Below are positions 3,347 through 32,053 of a DNA stretch of 32,053 nucleotides, piece by piece (positions within the stretch are counted from its first letter, which is position 1; every line of letters starts with the position of its first letter). The notes below the pieces were generated by a model. It had not been told where the DNA came from. It made no database searches and saw only the letters and a list, made by a program, of their open reading frames with translations. The position numbers were made by a program, and so were the translations under genes. This DNA is from a virus. The stretch is from positions 1-32,053 of IMG/VR virus record IMGVR_UViG_3300027675_000023. One strand, written 5' to 3'.

Positions 3347-3523
3347 CTATCCCTGTTCTTGCTTGACCATGCACTGTGTGTATAGTATTTCATGAACCAG
3401 CCTAAACACTTTGGGTGTGCCGTATGGATGCCAGCCATCGTGCAGGCATTGATTGATTACTAAATCGAACCTGACTACATCACTGTCGGTGATAGTCTTG
3501 TAGCCGGTGATTACATTATCCAT
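3347..3523 (-). CDS. DUF1737-type protein (58 aa)
   Basis: Start at 3523, with AGGAG 7-11 bases before the ATG; a longer frame to 3577 would overlap the helicase gene by about 60 bases. The sequence has the DUF1737 pattern: an N-terminal Y+TITDSD, then FDLVINQCLHDGWHPYGTP and a C-terminal YTQCMVKQ. The family is common in phages and bacteria and its role is not established. The start lies inside the 3' end of the helicase gene (8-bp overlap), so expression is probably coupled to it. Confidence 0.75.
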   Translation of the reverse strand: MDNVITGYKTITDSDVVRFDLVINQCLHDGWHPYGTPKVFRLVHEILYTQCMVKQEQG

Positions 3524-4790
3524 TGTTAGAGCTCCTAAATGTTGCCGTTGAACCATCAAAAAATAACTCTGCCACACCTACAGCACCGCTTCTATTCTTG
3601 CCAACTATAACCCTGGCATTCTGCGCGTTGCGGTGTATAAATAAAACCGTATCAGCGTCCTGTTCGATACTACCTGAGTCACGTAGATCACTCAAGACTG
3701 GTGTCTTGTCCACCCTGCCTTCGGAGTTTCGATTGAGCTGTGACAGGACAATGATAGGGAGCTCTAGCTCTTTAGCCAAGAGTTTTAGTTCTCTGGTGAT
3801 AGCTGAGATTTCATGTACGCGACTCTCTGTCTTTGGCTTAGTCATTAGTTGCAGGTAGTCGATTACTATTAGGCTAAGGTCTGGATTTAGTTTCTTTGCC
3901 TGGTATGCGTAGGCTTTTACCTTACCGATTGTGGAGCCCGTAGATACGGTTTCGATCTTAGCCTTGTCTAATTCACCCACTGCGTATGCGAACCTGCTCA
4001 TGTAGCCGTCATGCTCGTTAAGTTTGTCGTCCTTGAGGTAGCTCAGAGGTATGCAGCCAGTCATTGCGATTAGTGATTTAGTTATTTCATCTTCACCCAT
4101 TTCAAAGCTAAACAATAAGGCTCGCTTGTCTTGCCGAAGCATTGCGTTTTGCATAATGTTTAGCGCAAGGGTTGTCTTGCCCATTGAAGGGCGTGCCGCC
4201 AATACGATTAGCTGCCCAGCTCGTATGCCTTGCAGCAAGTCATCGAGTTGTTTGTAGCCGGTGTTGATCTTAAGTTTCTTTTCACCGTCGATTGCATTGC
4301 TGATCTCATCTACAACCGCGCTTAGCATTGTAGACATGGTAGATTTCTTTTCAGTGATCGTAACCTCTGCGCTAATAGTCTGCAACTTAGTCTGCGCCAG
4401 GTCTATGATTTCCCCAAGTGGCTGTTGGAAATCATTTAACCCTTGGATATGCGCCAGTGATTCTGATAACCGCTTGCGTGCCTGTAGTGATCTCATTTGC
4501 ATCGCGTAGTGGTATGCGTTCTTAGCACATGGGGTAGCACGCATAATCTCAGCCAGAGTACTGAACACATTAACCTCTGGCATCTCAGGTTGAATCATCC
4601 CCTCCAATAACAGCATGTCAATCGGCTTGCCCAATGCTATGAGCTGATCCATAGCTACAAAAGTTCTGAACATTAAATCATCCTGAAAGTCTGTAGGTTC
4701 GATGACCGCCTTCACTATTGGCAACTGAGCATGGTCAATCAGTATCCCACCGATGACTGCCATCTCTGATGTTAGTTGTATATCTATCAT
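3516..4790 (-). CDS. dnaB: DnaB-type replicative helicase (424 aa)
   Basis: Unwinds DNA at the phage replication fork as a hexamer. Residues 1-100 form the small N-terminal DnaB domain. The RecA-like core starts near 170, with Walker A ARPSMGKTT at 199-207, Walker B LIVIDYLQLM at 307-316, the VLSQLNR sensor at 348-354, SDLRDSGSIEQDAD at 367-380 and the KNRSG arginine-finger region at 398-402. Length is close to bacterial DnaB and the key residues are present. AGGAG lies upstream of the ATG. The gene follows the initiator-like gene by 14 bases. I see no primase or polymerase nearby, so it should work with host DnaG and Pol III. Confidence 0.95.
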   Translation of the reverse strand: MIDIQLTSEMAVIGGILIDHAQLPIVKAVIEPTDFQDDLMFRTFVAMDQLIALGKPIDMLLLEGMIQPEMPEVNVFSTLAEIMRATPCAKNAYHYAMQMRSLQARKRLSESLAHIQGLNDFQQPLGEIIDLAQTKLQTISAEVTITEKKSTMSTMLSAVVDEISNAIDGEKKLKINTGYKQLDDLLQGIRAGQLIVLAARPSMGKTTLALNIMQNAMLRQDKRALLFSFEMGEDEITKSLIAMTGCIPLSYLKDDKLNEHDGYMSRFAYAVGELDKAKIETVSTGSTIGKVKAYAYQAKKLNPDLSLIVIDYLQLMTKPKTESRVHEISAITRELKLLAKELELPIIVLSQLNRNSEGRVDKTPVLSDLRDSGSIEQDADTVLFIHRNAQNARVIVGKNRSGAVGVAELFFDGSTATFRSSNNG

Positions 4791-4804: not shown

Positions 4805-5431
4805 CTAGCGTCTTAACTTTAAGTCAATCGCTCGTTGTTGTTTAAGTTCATCAAAGGTTCTCACCTTTGCATACGGGCTGCTCGCTTGTTCCGGTAATGG
4901 CTTTGTGTAATCGTCCTTACCTGGCACTTCGCGAAGCGAAAATGTGCCTGTACTAGTACTTGCGGATGCGCTAACAGGGGTGTTGCGCTCCGTAGTATCA
5001 GTACCTTCTTCTAGAGAAGAAGTATTAGTACGCAGAAAGTGCGCACTACGTACGACTAACTTAGGTGCTAGAACCCTTGTGGCGCAAGAGGAGTTCCACT
5101 TTTTTTGGTCGTATCTTTTTATCAGTTTATTGGTAACCAAGGTATTAATATACTTGTCAAAAGTCCTTGGTGAGATAGTGTCTTCTGGGTGCCTGTTGTT
5201 GTAGAGTTCAAGCATAGTCTTGTTACATGCAACGCTAATGTTCTTGAGGTTAGTTACACTGATGATTATCTTAAGTAAGTTGGTTGTCTTTTGTTTTATC
5301 TTTAGTTGCTTGCACCGGTTCTCTGCCCAGATATAGAGGCTGCGTTTGTTATTCTTCCAAATGTCTGGGTCTTCTCTACGGATGACCTGGGCTGAATATA
5401 CTCTTTGTTTTCTTTGGGCAATAATTGTCAT
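4805..5431 (-). CDS. replication initiator-like / helicase-loader protein (208 aa)
   Basis: Lies immediately upstream of dnaB, where phage initiators and loaders usually sit. Residues 15-125 are basic and helical, with a winged-helix-like stretch (SVACNKTMLELYNNRHP, then SPRTFDKYINTLVTNKLIKRY). A Ser/Thr-rich linker follows (about 140-165; SASASTSTGTFS), then a charged C-terminal tail that could contact the helicase. The DNA encoding the linker contains repeated GTAYYAGTAC sites next to an AT-rich stretch, recalling the lambda O gene, which contains its own origin. The start is an ATGA overlap with a GGGAGTGA site. The exact role is inferred from position and layout. Confidence 0.6.
   Translation of the reverse strand: MTIIAQRKQRVYSAQVIRREDPDIWKNNKRSLYIWAENRCKQLKIKQKTTNLLKIIISVTNLKNISVACNKTMLELYNNRHPEDTISPRTFDKYINTLVTNKLIKRYDQKKWNSSCATRVLAPKLVVRSAHFLRTNTSSLEEGTDTTERNTPVSASASTSTGTFSLREVPGKDDYTKPLPEQASSPYAKVRTFDELKQQRAIDLKLRR
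4927..5171. other. candidate replication origin: iterons and AT-rich stretch inside the initiator gene
   Basis: Three related 10-mers, consensus GTAYYAGTAC, lie at 4950-4959, 4995-5004 and 5022-5031. Nearby are the perfect palindrome CTTCGCGAAG (4927-4936) and the arms CTTCTTCT/AGAAGAAG (5005-5012 and 5015-5022). About 70 bases on is an AT-rich stretch (about 5099-5165) bounded by the inverted arms ACCAAGG (5136-5142) and CCTTGGT (5165-5171). The arrangement resembles iteron-plus-unwinding-element origins, but the sequences also encode protein, so this is inference. Confidence 0.4.
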
Positions 5432-5564: not shown

Positions 5565-5608
5565 TTGCTGCGTTAAGGTCACCGGATAAAGTAAGCTTAA
5601 CGCAGCAA
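5565..5608 (-). promoter_or_regulatory. 13-bp perfect inverted repeat in the initiator leader
   Basis: TTGCTGCGTTAAG (5565-5577) and CTTAACGCAGCAA (5596-5608) are perfect inverted copies around an 18-nt loop. On the leftward transcript the stem ends directly before TAAGGA, the ribosome binding site of the 5428-5550 gene. There is no U-tract after the stem, so it is more likely a translational or stability element, or a protein binding site, than a terminator. A very AT-rich run flanks it at 5609-5628. Confidence 0.7.
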
Positions 5609-5665
5609 GATTTAAAAAATAATATATAGAGTACCTGCACCTTATCTACAGATCAACTCATAATT

Positions 5666-5776
5666 TCAAAGTTTAGTTTTTATCTTGGAAGCGAGCCACT
5701 TGGCTTGACGGTTTAATCTATGCCGGGTAAGCAATGATAGACTGACGTGGCTCGCACTATAACTATAGCCCATCAT
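5666..5776 (-). CDS. basic microprotein (36 aa)
   Basis: The ATG at 5776 overlaps the stop of the regulator gene as ATGA; a second ATG follows directly. The peptide is basic, with a helical centre (VSLSLLTRHRLNRQAKWLA) and a Lys-rich tail, which suggests nucleic-acid contact. The Shine-Dalgarno match is weak (AAGTGG). The inverted repeat GCGAGCCAC/GTGGCTCGC (5691-5699, 5747-5755) falls inside it. It fills what is otherwise a 220-base gap between the regulator and the initiator leader. From 5551 to 5665 I see no gene, only the 5565-5608 hairpin and AT-rich sequence. Confidence 0.45.
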   Translation of the reverse strand: MMGYSYSASHVSLSLLTRHRLNRQAKWLASKIKTKL

Positions 5777-5955
5777 AACCACTTGGCAGCCCGAAGCTCT
5801 GGGTCTATTTCTTCTAGAAGCTTATACCTATGTGCCAGCAATGCGCGTACTAGCAACGATATATTACCACCACACTTCCTGTTCGCTTCCTGCTGCAATG
5901 CAGCTCGCAATGGTATTGTCAGCACTATGTTGCTGCGAATTAAATGATCTCTCAT
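5773..5955 (-). CDS. ribbon-helix-helix (Arc/CopG-like) regulator (60 aa)
   Basis: The protein has the RHH pattern: a short strand (NIVLTIPLR), a helix (AALQQEANRKC), a turn (GGN) and a second helix (ISLLVRALLAHRYKLLEEI). Length is typical of the dimeric Arc/CopG repressors, in which the paired strands read DNA. It is the first leftward gene next to the divergent promoter region, where such a protein would control both early operons. AAGG precedes the ATG by about nine bases. The likely target is the ATGAT/ATCAT dyad at 5985-5998. Family assignment is by pattern. Confidence 0.65.
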   Translation of the reverse strand: MRDHLIRSNIVLTIPLRAALQQEANRKCGGNISLLVRALLAHRYKLLEEIDPELRAAKWL

Positions 5956-6032: not shown

Positions 6033-6233
6033 ATGTTAAGTAAAAAGTTTAGTATCGAAGGCCGTAAGTTTGCAATGACAGTTACTTGTTATGAAGAAGA
6101 CGGGAGTACATACCTAGCCGACAAAGAGTTTATTATTGGTTTACAAGATCTAACATCGGAACATATAACTACAGTTACTATCAGTGCTAAAGAGCTAGGT
6201 GAAATTGTATCAATGTTAAACGCAGCAAGGTAG
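6033..6233 (+). CDS. hypothetical small protein (66 aa)
   Basis: The first rightward gene, with AAGGGG at 6021-6026 and ATG at 6033 (a GTG directly before it is less well placed). The sequence is beta-rich (KFSIEGRKFAMTVTCYEED, TYLADKEFIIGL, HITTVTISAKE) with a C-terminal helix, suggesting a small beta domain. No family recognised. Position suggests an early role alongside the recombination genes. Confidence 0.7.
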   Translation: MLSKKFSIEGRKFAMTVTCYEEDGSTYLADKEFIIGLQDLTSEHITTVTISAKELGEIVSMLNAAR

Positions 6234-6240
6234 GTGTTAA

Positions 6241-7161
6241 ATGTTAACCAAGGAACAAATTTCTATTAGAAAAAACTATGTATGTGGTTCAGATATTGGA
6301 ACTATACTGGGTGTTAATCGCTTTGCCACAGCAGTTGAGCTGTGGCAGATTAAGACGGGTCGCATGGAAGCACCCGACATTGGTAACAAGCCTGCTGTTA
6401 AAGCTGGCAATATGTTAGAAGACGCAGTGGCACACTGGTTTGCTACTGAAACAGGCAAGGAGCTATACAAAGATGAGCGTTTCATTATTCATCCAAGCAT
6501 ACCCGTACTTGGTGGAAACATTGACCGGCGCATTACTGGTGAAAATGCTTTACTCGAATGTAAAACTACACAGTCGGGGGAGGGATGGGGCGAGGGATTC
6601 CCAGCAGGGGACAATATAATACCGCACGCATACTTATGCCAGGTCATACACTACTGCGCAATCACCGGATGTGACACAGCTTATATTGCTGTGTTAATCA
6701 GAGGTATTGATTTTAGATGGTACAAGTATGAGCGCAACATAGAGCTAGAAAAGATTGTCATGGAGCGATGCGTGCAATGGTGGGAGCAATACGTTGTAGC
6801 AGACACAGCTCCGGCACCTGTTACTGAGGATGATGTAACAGCGTTGCTGCAAGGTAGGGTATCAGATGCAACGGCACCAGCAACAGTTGAGATCGAGTGT
6901 GCAGTTGATGAGCTACGCCATGTTAGGTCTGAAATAGATTCACTAGAAGCGCAAGAGAAAAGCCTGCGTGATATAATCTGTGCATTCATGGGTGACAGAC
7001 AAACGCTAGTAACATCTAGTGGCAAAGTTGCAATCACATGGAAGCAGCGTGAAGGGTCTGTACGATTTGATGCTAAGACATTCAAATCAAAACACCCTGA
7101 TTTATACAGAGAGTTTGAAGTCAAAGGCGATCCGGTTAGGTCGTTTCTAGTAAAGGGGTAA
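6241..7161 (+). CDS. YqaJ / lambda-exonuclease-type recombination nuclease (306 aa)
   Basis: A PD-(D/E)XK exonuclease that would resect double-stranded DNA ends 5' to 3' to leave single strands for the annealing protein encoded next. Visible motifs are SDIGTILGVN near the start, the helix glutamate in GNMLED (E60), the catalytic aspartate in GGNID (D95), the ECK motif (E106-K108) and the downstream Q134 in LCQVIHY. The core occupies about residues 10-195; the remainder is a charged helical region (about 230-260) and a C-terminal extension. AAGGTAGG precedes the ATG. It forms a two-component recombinase with the ERF gene two bases downstream. Confidence 0.9.
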   Translation: MLTKEQISIRKNYVCGSDIGTILGVNRFATAVELWQIKTGRMEAPDIGNKPAVKAGNMLEDAVAHWFATETGKELYKDERFIIHPSIPVLGGNIDRRITGENALLECKTTQSGEGWGEGFPAGDNIIPHAYLCQVIHYCAITGCDTAYIAVLIRGIDFRWYKYERNIELEKIVMERCVQWWEQYVVADTAPAPVTEDDVTALLQGRVSDATAPATVEIECAVDELRHVRSEIDSLEAQEKSLRDIICAFMGDRQTLVTSSGKVAITWKQREGSVRFDAKTFKSKHPDLYREFEVKGDPVRSFLVKG

Positions 7162-8478: not shown

Positions 8479-8629
8479 CAGTCTGCGTACCAGGGTTGCA
8501 AAACTGCACAGCGATGCAATCAGCGATGTTAGTTCGCAGATAGTTATAGCCAAAGGCAAAGAGGTGCTGCGCGAAGTATGGCGTGGCACCAATGCTAACA
8601 AGGTGATAAGGATTGTCGTTCGGTTATAG
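8471..8629 (+). CDS. small basic protein (52 aa), GTG start
   Basis: The GTG at 8471 has AAGGA about five bases upstream and overlaps the end of the previous gene by eight bases. The sequence is helical and basic (SLRTRVAKLHSDAISDV, GKEVLREVWRGTNANKVIRIVV). No family recognised. It is the last gene of the recombination block before the virion genes. Confidence 0.55.
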   Translation: MANSLRTRVAKLHSDAISDVSSQIVIAKGKEVLREVWRGTNANKVIRIVVRL

Positions 8630-8639
8630 GGATTGTTAC

Positions 8640-9119
8640 GTGTTATATGATGCTGAAGCCACACGGGAAATATTTTTAATATTCCAAGGCACATACCATT
8701 ACCGGTTCTCATTTATGTTAAAGGCCGGGTTCCAACATATGTTTGCACTAGAGCGCAGTGCGTTGGGATGGGTGTTATTAGATCCATCCCGGGCTAATTT
8801 TCATTGCTGCATACTACCTGCTGCCTTTGGGGATGATGTTGCCGGGGCATTTGCTAGGCGCAATAAAGACTCAACCGTCATGCAGGTCTTTGTTAAACCT
8901 GTACAACTAACTAGAAATTTGTACCCGAAGCTTGGGTTGCTTAGCTGTGTAAGCACCATGCAATATACCTTGGGGGTTTATTGGCCTTGGATAATAACTC
9001 CATACCAGCTATATTGTAGGCTAAGGAATTTAACCAGCGAACACATCAAGGTAGGGAACATATGGGCGGTGGAAGCGGCAGAAGACAAGCACGTCAGGCG
9101 GCAGAACAATCCCGGGTAG
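8640..9119 (+). CDS. conserved-type phage protein, possible permuted cysteine-peptidase-like fold (159 aa)
   Basis: Start taken at GTG 8640, with AGGGA upstream; a TTG at 8613 is possible. The protein has a GFQHMFALE...GWVLLDPS block (H33, D48) and, later, LLSCVSTMQYTLGVYWPWIITPYQLY (C103). This resembles a phage family found near portal genes, with an HCF.L....W.LLDP block followed by a C...V...LG....LTPWQLYR block. The His-then-Cys order could fit a circularly permuted papain/NlpC fold, but that is only a suggestion. Its last 58 bases overlap the next gene in another frame. Confidence 0.55.
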   Translation: MLYDAEATREIFLIFQGTYHYRFSFMLKAGFQHMFALERSALGWVLLDPSRANFHCCILPAAFGDDVAGAFARRNKDSTVMQVFVKPVQLTRNLYPKLGLLSCVSTMQYTLGVYWPWIITPYQLYCRLRNLTSEHIKVGNIWAVEAAEDKHVRRQNNPG

Positions 9120-29737: not shown

Positions 29738-31158
29738 TACATGAGATAGATTTCTTTAAGGAAATATTTAACGCCTACCCAGACCAGCGCAAGTTCTTTG
29801 ATGCTGTATTCTCTGGGAAGTACCAGTACTTTTTAGAAAATGCACATCGTAGGTTTGGTAAGGACGCCGAGTTCTTTAACTGCGCTTGGCTATATGCTTC
29901 GATGATACCGGGCACACATCTATATACACTGCCAAAGATAGGCCAGGCACGCAACGTAGTATGGGAAGGAACAGACCTAAATGGTAGGCGTTGGATTGAT
30001 TCAATACCAGCGCACCTGCTGGCAAGAAAGCCACACGAGACAACCTGCAAGTTATACTTCGTAGGCGGTGGCGTGTTGCATATCACTGGGGCTGATAACC
30101 TGCTTAACTCACGGTTAGGATCTAACTTAGCCTCTGTGTGGATGTCCGAGTTTCAACGTACGCATCCAGCTATCTGGGATTACTTGCGGCCAATAATAAA
30201 ACGAAGCGGTGCCATTGCTGCATTTAACTATACAAGCTTTGGCAAAGGACACGCCTATAGACTCTACCAACGTAACAAGGATAACCCTAAATGGTTTTGT
30301 AGGAAGTTAACCGTTGAAGATACCCGGGACAATTACGGGAACTATATATTCTCACCGGAGCAGATAGAAGAAGAACGCGAATCAGGGATGGATGAGGACT
30401 TAATCCAACAGGAGTATTACTGTAACGACAATGTAGCGGTTAAGGGTACGTTCTTCTCAAGCCAGTTAGAGCTAGCCCACACCGAAGGTCGCGTTGTCAA
30501 GGTGCTTGAGGTCTTTCCAAACCTGCCAGTGCATACATCATGGGACTTAGGTTCAAGGGATACCAATAGCATATGGTTTTTCCAAGTCATTGGCACGGGT
30601 AACACGGCACAGTTTCGATACTTCTATCAGCATGATCACACCTACGGGAGTGTCGAGTATTACTTAGACCTGCTAGCTAAGGTGAAAGCTAAGCACGGCT
30701 TCACAAGATACGGTAATCATTTCGTACCGCACGATATATCGCAGACTGAATACACATCGGGTAAGACTAGGTTTGTAACGTTCATGCAAGCAGGGCTCAA
30801 GCTTATACCTGTACCTATGGTACGAGTCATTGAGCGCGTCCAGGTTGCACGCACTGCATTGAAGCAGTGCTGGTTTAGTAGTGATGGATGCAAGCACGGC
30901 CTTGAAGCTTTGGCGGTGTCACGCGCTCACTACAACGAATTAACCAAAGCACTGTCAGCGGATGAGGTGCACGACTGGGCATCCCATGCTAGCGCTGCGT
31001 TTCAATACGGCCACGTTGGATGGCTCGACCAGTACAACAAGCCAATGCTAGCCAAACAACAAGAGTATGCACGGGCTAGACACCACACCAACCCGGCAGA
31101 CAGATACCCAAGTAACATGATGGCTGGCATCAATAGAAATATAAACCACAAACGCTAG
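29731..31158 (+). CDS. terL: terminase large subunit (475 aa)
   Basis: The ATP-driven packaging motor and nuclease. The ATPase domain has an atypical Walker A, HRRFGKD (39-45), and a Walker B ending in SVWMSE (135-140), both forms known in phage terminases. ITGADNLLNSRLGS (118-131) and NYTSFGKGHAYRLY follow. The nuclease domain shows the expected acidic positions at D272 (SWDLGSRDT), D335 (VPHDIS) and D415 (EVHDWASHASAAF). Length is in the family range. The small subunit is on the other strand at 635-1174. Its stop is followed by 72 bases without a gene. Confidence 0.9.
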   Translation: MLVHEIDFFKEIFNAYPDQRKFFDAVFSGKYQYFLENAHRRFGKDAEFFNCAWLYASMIPGTHLYTLPKIGQARNVVWEGTDLNGRRWIDSIPAHLLARKPHETTCKLYFVGGGVLHITGADNLLNSRLGSNLASVWMSEFQRTHPAIWDYLRPIIKRSGAIAAFNYTSFGKGHAYRLYQRNKDNPKWFCRKLTVEDTRDNYGNYIFSPEQIEEERESGMDEDLIQQEYYCNDNVAVKGTFFSSQLELAHTEGRVVKVLEVFPNLPVHTSWDLGSRDTNSIWFFQVIGTGNTAQFRYFYQHDHTYGSVEYYLDLLAKVKAKHGFTRYGNHFVPHDISQTEYTSGKTRFVTFMQAGLKLIPVPMVRVIERVQVARTALKQCWFSSDGCKHGLEALAVSRAHYNELTKALSADEVHDWASHASAAFQYGHVGWLDQYNKPMLAKQQEYARARHHTNPADRYPSNMMAGINRNINHKR

Positions 31159-31230: not shown

Positions 31231-31914
31231 ATGGACGCTATAGTACCTGCTGGAAATACCAGCTTAGTTATAGATAGAAAAGATGACTGCGACAAGCCAC
31301 GCCGTAGCTATGATGACTGCGGCTATAGCCGTAGAGATTGTGCAACACGTGATGATGTCGAAGGCTTAGAGACTCGACTCAATGTCGGTGAGAACTCCCA
31401 AGAAATTAGACAGCAAGCAGCTAAGTTAGCATTGCATGTGGCTGATAAAGTGAACGACGAGGGCAGAGAAGGCCGCCTAGGTCTGTTGCGTGTTGCTGAT
31501 AAGCTAGGCGACTCTGTTGAGAAGTTCGGCTTGGCTGGTCTTGTTGCAACTAAAGACCTGCACAAAGATGTTGAGCATGAGTTTGGCAAGCTTAAGTTTT
31601 TAATTGCCAAAGAAGTTGGCGAGTCTAAGTTGGAATCAGCCAAGCAATATGCAAGCGTGTTGTTAGAAGCTGCTAAGGCTAAGGCAGAGATTGAGCTAGA
31701 AGCTTTGAAGAACACAACTAAGATCAAAGATAAGATCGCCGAGTGCTGCGCTGAGACTCATATGCTAATCAAAGAAACTGCATGTGAAACTAAAGAGCTA
31801 GTGAGAAGTGTTGAAGAAAAAAGACTACGTGAAAGACTAGAAGAAGCACAAGACGAAGCCCGTGCTTTGCGATTTCGCTTCTGCGTCTGCGCCAAAGATC
31901 ACACAGCACCTTAG
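31231..31914 (+). CDS. coiled-coil protein of unknown function (227 aa)
   Basis: AGGAGA precedes the ATG. The first 45 residues are rich in Asp, Arg and Cys (DDCDKPRRSYDDCGYSRRDC). A long helical, heptad-rich region follows (about 50-215) with ECCAETHMLIKETACETKELVRSVEEKRLRERLEEAQDEAR near the end. This Cys-pair-then-helix pattern (ECC.E...LI) occurs in small phage proteins of unknown role, possibly virion components. The last 12 residues (RFCVCAKDHTAP) look unlike the rest. A +1 shift would instead continue into a hydrophobic anchor (see 31877-31993). Confidence 0.7.
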   Translation: MDAIVPAGNTSLVIDRKDDCDKPRRSYDDCGYSRRDCATRDDVEGLETRLNVGENSQEIRQQAAKLALHVADKVNDEGREGRLGLLRVADKLGDSVEKFGLAGLVATKDLHKDVEHEFGKLKFLIAKEVGESKLESAKQYASVLLEAAKAKAEIELEALKNTTKIKDKIAECCAETHMLIKETACETKELVRSVEEKRLRERLEEAQDEARALRFRFCVCAKDHTAP

Positions 31915-31993
31915 CCTGTGGGTCTGCTGCGGTGTCTTAACCGGCATCATAGTGGGCACAGTGATGGGTGTTGTAGTGTCGAGGCTGCTCTAG
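31877..31993 (+). other. possible +1 frameshift extension: C-terminal membrane anchor
   Basis: If the reading frame slips by one base at TTTC (31873-31876), the 227-residue protein continues for 38 residues after F215 instead of 12. The extension has a polar stretch (ASASAPKITQHLS) and then one long hydrophobic segment (LWVCCGVLTGIIVGTVMGVVV) with a basic end (SRLL), stopping just before the terminator. This could be a sequencing indel in the TTT run, a programmed shift, or a separate gene from GTG 31862. Confidence 0.5.
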
Positions 31994-32053
31994 TGTTGTA
32001 AGGGCTGATTATATTTATTTATATTCAGCCCTTAATCTTTTTAAAATACTTTA
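31914..32053. repeat. right copy of 140-bp terminal direct repeat
   Basis: Matches bases 1-140 at 138 of 140 positions. The copy begins on the last base of the stop codon of the 31231-31914 gene, so the sequence is continuous across the join and the contig is probably complete. Confidence 0.9.
32000..32042 (+). terminator. rho-independent terminator, right repeat copy
   Basis: The second copy of the 87-129 terminator, with identical stem and T-tract. It lies seven bases after the TAG at 31991-31993 that ends the possible frameshifted membrane tail, as expected for the end of the late transcript. Confidence 0.85.

Follow-up and report, generated by a model that had tools for sequence, protein, structure and literature searches.

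A candidate replication origin built of unlike hairpins within a putative initiator gene of a podovirus

Structured DNA Within the Gene Upstream of dnaB

In a podovirus genome of 32,053 b (one complete virus record, IMG/VR IMGVR_UViG_3300027675_000023, referred to here as the window), the DNA at positions 4923-5048 is under strong structural constraint beyond its codons, in the middle of a gene for a 208-aa protein and next to dnaB. On balance, we favor the interpretation that this segment is the core of the phage replication origin, located inside the linker-coding part of the phage's own initiator gene, with dnaB following. Such an origin is best read as made of dyads, not of iterons. Origins within genes are already known, and on the best reading the new elements here are the unrelated protein and the unlike dyads. 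The features concerned are as follows:

3516-4790, minus strand: gene for a DnaB-type replicative helicase of 424 aa (Pfam DnaB_C, 1.3e-75; DnaB N, 1.6e-13; PHROG 19, 7.4e-87)
4805-5431, minus strand: ORF for a putative replication initiator of 208 aa, a role suggested by the dnaB gene that follows it and by its internal structured DNA
Parts of the 208-aa protein: possible HTH (judged by eye, at about residues 85-125), a Ser/Thr linker, and a basic helix at the C-terminus
4923-5048, minus strand: candidate core of the origin, a run of four adjacent hairpins (fold z against codon-preserving shuffles -5.6 to -5.8, 0/2000; 0/1581 for the whole gene)
5026-5048, minus strand: hairpin H1, 9-bp stem with one G-T pair (z -3.7 alone)
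5005-5022, minus strand: hairpin H2, 7-bp stem in CTTCTTCT-CT-AGAAGAAG (z -1.15 alone, not significant)
4950-5004, minus strand: hairpin H3, long imperfect stem of 55 nt (z -5.1 alone, 0/200 shuffles)
4923-4948, minus strand: hairpin H4, stem of 10 bp and a bulge of 3 nt (z -3.3 alone)
5136-5171, no strand assigned: AT-rich stretch with 7-bp inverted arms, indistinguishable from chance by the counts of such arms and the AT percentile

Within the 208-aa gene, the hairpin cluster coincides with the codons for the Ser/Thr linker. Folded as a single strand, H1 to H4 comprise 47 pairs in total, 46 of them Watson-Crick and one G-T. The four dyads are unlike in sequence, and their centers lie 23.5, 36.5, and 41.5 bp apart. 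This hairpin arrangement was not mentioned in the initial annotation of the region, which had described iterons, extra palindromes, and an adjoining AT-rich stretch within an initiator-like gene.

With DNA parameters, the coding strand of 4923-5048 has a fold-energy z of -5.6 to -5.8 and the opposite strand one of -4.8, and none of 2000 codon-preserving shuffles folds as well. When the minimum over the whole 208-aa gene is taken instead, the observed fold is reached by none of 1581 codon-preserving shuffled genes. The DNA thus folds far beyond the needs of the protein, which suggests an origin carried within the gene. In a dinucleotide-shuffle scan of the whole record (140-nt windows in steps of 35, both strands), 4901-5040 ranks first for structure on both strands. 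The background set consisted of 29 genes directly upstream of dnaB plus their dnaB genes, taken from IMG/VR; none of its 889 windows falls below a z of -5, and about 0.3% fall below -4. The truncated initiator-like gene in the relative L009 lacks a fold peak.

Separately from the cluster, the start of the yqaJ gene (6231-6440) is also structured beyond its codons (z -4.6), with a single stem, GCCACAGC/GCTGTGGC, dominating the fold.

Comparison With Known In-Gene Origins

The same codon-preserving test was applied to replication genes of other phages. It gave a z of -5.3 over the four annotated iterons of lambda O and nothing in lambda P, -3.7 over the annotated rep_origin in P22 gene 18, and -3.3 over the gp15 sites in phi80 gene 15. 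HK022 O was weak, with -3.0 and -2.9 at two places, and its record has no annotated origin. The rep gene of TP901-1, which we take to carry an in-gene origin, has a single fold peak (z -3.9), and in this it resembles the 208-aa gene; unlike the latter, it encodes a DnaD-like helicase loader of a lactococcal phage, with no sequence similarity to the 208-aa protein.

P22 offers several points of likeness. Its initiator gene (gene 18) directly precedes a dnaB gene that the phage itself carries (gene 12), its origin lies about two fifths to three fifths of the way into the initiator gene, as does the hairpin cluster here, and a codon-preserving fold peak is found in both genes, in P22 over the annotated origin. 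They differ in that the initiators are without sequence similarity and that the signal reported here is stronger and built of unlike hairpins. With lambda O and phi80 gene 15, the 208-aa gene shares dyad-rich DNA between regions encoding the N- and C-terminal parts of the protein, and the z of the fold is of the same size as in lambda (-5.6 here, -5.3 in lambda). That the origin sits mid-gene in O is already in the literature (PMC6022878, PMC7466680), and for lambdoid origins it is stated in print that no hairpins in gene O are more stable than those formed by the iterons (PMC7466680). The lambda origin consists of four 18-bp repeats of one dyad, spaced about 20-24 b apart, and an AT-rich tract follows toward the C-terminal end (PMC6022878, PMC7466680). 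In contrast, the dyads here are not copies of one another, the AT-rich tract is modest and is found on the opposite flank, and a strong AT-rich unwinding element is absent from the lambda-like side of the hairpin cluster. The gene order also differs, as lambda P is a loader, whereas here the DnaB gene follows the initiator gene.

A row of hairpins within a short stretch is also found in the structured initiation sites of the phage G4 type, which belong to single-stranded genomes and act via primase; nothing in the present results points to such use.

Overall, the 208-aa gene has the layout of an initiator gene with an in-gene origin, in that DNA constraint beyond the codons lies in mid-gene; a regular iteron array is not part of it. 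The earlier proposal of an origin inside an initiator gene remains the best-supported reading, given the structure beyond the codons, a location like that in lambda, P22, and phi80, and the adjoining dnaB, whereas the initiator function of the protein is put forward from context.

DNA-Level or RNA-Level Function

The main rival to a DNA origin, and a serious one, is that the hairpins act in the mRNA, where a structured segment between two protein domains could serve in ribosome pausing, in RNase III cutting, or in tuning the expression of the downstream dnaB. RNA folding of the coding strand likewise gives extreme values (z -4.2 to -5.3 against codon-preserving shuffles), the hairpins lie within the initiator-dnaB transcription unit, and with DNA parameters the coding strand is slightly ahead of the opposite one. 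However, just 1 of the 47 pairs is G-T and the opposite strand is nearly as structured, as would be expected for DNA dyads, and the same signal marks DNA origins in lambda, P22, and phi80. The scarcity of G-T pairs and the structure on both strands lean toward a function at the DNA level, without deciding the matter. We regard a role in the mRNA as possible, though with a clearly lower probability than an origin.

If 4923-5048 is an origin, the 208-aa protein would, by analogy with P22, bind the dyads of its own gene in double-stranded form. Neighboring DNA may be strained and opened by the resulting complex, after which the phage DnaB might be brought onto single-stranded DNA by a host loader or by the C-terminal tail of the 208-aa protein. 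A flexible linker would accept any residues that the DNA dyads impose.

Repeats, Palindromes, and the AT-Rich Stretch

The 10-mers GTACTAGTAC (4950-4959), GTATCAGTAC (4995-5004), and GTATTAGTAC (5022-5031) together span 82 bases, as had been noted before, and they do fall where the 208-aa ORF (4805-5431, minus strand) encodes its Ser/Thr-rich part. They are rare: the pattern GTA[CT][CT][AG][AG]TAC has four copies in the whole window, three here and the remaining one at 29820. Under synonymous-codon randomization that kept the protein, and for this place alone, their occurrence has P = 0.0008; the values are P = 0.0017 in a motif-free test counting 10-mers with at most 1 mismatch and P = 0.0013 for three perfect 10-bp palindromes. 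All three counts are beyond coding chance; the density of palindromes is not unique in the window. Across the window, we counted eight clusters in which at least three comparable 10-mers fall within 120 b, whereas 20 Markov simulations gave 0-6 such clusters. The 10-mer repeats alone are therefore not exceptional.

The term iteron did not hold for these repeats. Their spacings are uneven (27 and 45 bp), their flanks are not shared, TRF finds no repeat array at the in-gene 10-mer region, and two of the copies are arms of one hairpin. Specifically, the arms of H3 begin and end with the 10-mers at 4995-5004 and 4950-4959, which are complementary and form the outer parts of both arms, and the 3' arm of H1 contains most of the 10-mer at 5022-5031. 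Arms that are near-palindromic naturally resemble direct repeats. An iteron plasmid replicon finds no match either, as both a Rep_3-type initiator (Pfam) and tandem direct repeats in helical phase are absent.

It could be argued that the region has no function, and that the codons of a low-complexity Ser/Thr linker drifted by chance into repeats and palindromes. All three 10-mers share one reading frame and encode xTxT, and the eight clusters of like strength in the window also speak for this view. However, the codon-preserving controls exclude chance folding (0/2000, 0/1581), and the cluster, which is the extreme of the window, has no equal among the 889 background windows. We consider such drift very improbable.

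The stretch bounded by ACCAAGG (5136-5142) and CCTTGGT (5165-5171) had been singled out as a further element, and here both of its properties proved to be within chance expectation. Perfect 7-bp inverted arms 3-30 nt apart occur 105 times in the window (0.8 per 245 b). Between the arms, AT content reaches at most 73% over 60 b (98.8th percentile), and comparable values occur elsewhere in the 208-aa gene (71.7%) and at about 5.6 kb (75%).

As a separate matter, a mobile palindromic element in the linker was considered and rejected: it has no second copy in the window and no notable DNA match in phages.

The 208-aa Protein and Its Gene Context

The product of 3516-4790 scores above the cut-offs for both PF00772 and PF03796, the N- and C-terminal domains of DnaB. 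Its gene starts 14 bases after the 208-aa ORF, directly downstream, so that the 208-aa gene has the position typical of Phage_rep_O-type genes, directly upstream of a helicase or loader gene. From this gene order and the DNA signal inside the gene, the 208-aa protein is probably an initiator.

No relative of the protein was found in Pfam, PHROG, NCBIfam, PDB, INPHARED phages, PLSDB plasmids, IMG/VR (searched with the whole 208-aa protein and a fragment), or GTDB. Among 124 IMG/VR loci of capsid-guided relatives, none has this putative initiator or a related DnaB, and in 80 DnaB-guided loci the neighboring genes are without relation to the 208-aa gene. Homology to Phage_rep_O, the family of lambda O and P22 gp18, was not detected with Pfam, PHROG, or alignment, and four lambdoid O proteins and TP901-1 Rep gave no significant alignment. 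Single-sequence AlphaFold models (pLDDT 45 and 66) were too poor to use. With regard to a winged HTH, helices were predicted at low confidence, a wing was absent, and Foldseek returned no match.

The earlier suggestion that the protein families differ stands as an absence of detectable similarity, a pattern that convergence and extreme divergence would leave alike. A bolder reading is that an orphan initiator, of no kinship to lambda O, arrived independently at an origin within its own linker-coding DNA, and that a row of unlike hairpins is recognized by shape or dyad symmetry instead of through iterons; we offer this version tentatively and think it rather unlikely as a whole.

If the interpretation as an origin is correct, the placement of origins in initiator linkers would extend beyond recognizable lambda-type O proteins. 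Such origins would then be findable without homology, as the codon-preserving fold scan located those in lambda O, P22 gene 18, and phi80 gene 15, and the scan would offer a cheap way to propose origins for many phages with initiators outside known families. It would also provide a clean test of whether DNA dictates the sequences of initiator linkers.

Other Possible Origin and Control Signals

The cumulative GC skew has its minimum at 4874, beside the hairpin cluster. This check, proposed in the initial annotation, is favorable in location, but the minimum is shallow and is confounded by the switch in gene direction near 6.0 kb, where the AT-skew minimum is located. The DnaA box TTWTNCACA does not occur in the whole window, against 4.9 expected in shuffles. 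The GC-skew minimum and the absence of DnaA boxes are consistent with an in-gene origin, and agree with it only weakly.

The leader upstream of the 208-aa gene contains an 18-nt inverted repeat (5565-5582/5591-5608, 89% complementary, 8-nt loop). This repeat (5565-5608) adjoins an A/T-only run and is a possible operator or second origin element. It bears on a further alternative, namely that the 208-aa protein or another phage regulator binds the gene as an operator, in autoregulation, and that replication starts elsewhere, for instance at the leader dyad with its A/T run (5565-5630). The strength of this dyad, its place upstream of the gene, and the adjoining A/T-only run fit such a scheme, as palindromic sites fit self-binding. 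Yet the leader dyad is a single stem whose folding is far less exceptional than that of the in-gene cluster, and 380-510 b inside a gene is an unusual place for controlling initiation. We regard an operator as unlikely, and an origin at 4923-5048 remains our preferred reading.

In the divergent control region, an inverted repeat, GCGAGCCAC/GTGGCTCGC (5691-5699 and 5747-5755), lies beside a 60-aa ORF (5773-5955, minus strand). This ORF and the neighboring inverted repeat are perhaps a small repressor and its operator.

The Virus Record and Its Relatives

Leftward genes of this podovirus include the 208-aa ORF and dnaB, and rightward genes include those for YqaJ and ERF recombination proteins. 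Positions 1-140 and 31914-32053 of the window form a direct terminal repeat that is identical at 138 of 140 positions, and the genome is therefore probably complete and either terminally redundant or circular. The record is apparently not classed as closed, for which the inexact terminal match is perhaps the reason. The terminal repeat also contains a terminator-like hairpin, TAAGGGCTGATTATA/TATATTCAGCCCTTA.

Distant relatives (about 27-36%) of the portal, major capsid, and terminase proteins occur in Pelagibacter, Vibrio, and Methylophilales podoviruses and in spring-water phages. The nearest relative is the IMG/VR fragment L089, with about 73-78% identity in its portal, capsid, and tail proteins; it stops short of the replication genes. 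An ORF at 8613-9119, to which no function was assigned, is also present in the relatives L009, L010, and L019, where it lies immediately upstream of the portal region.
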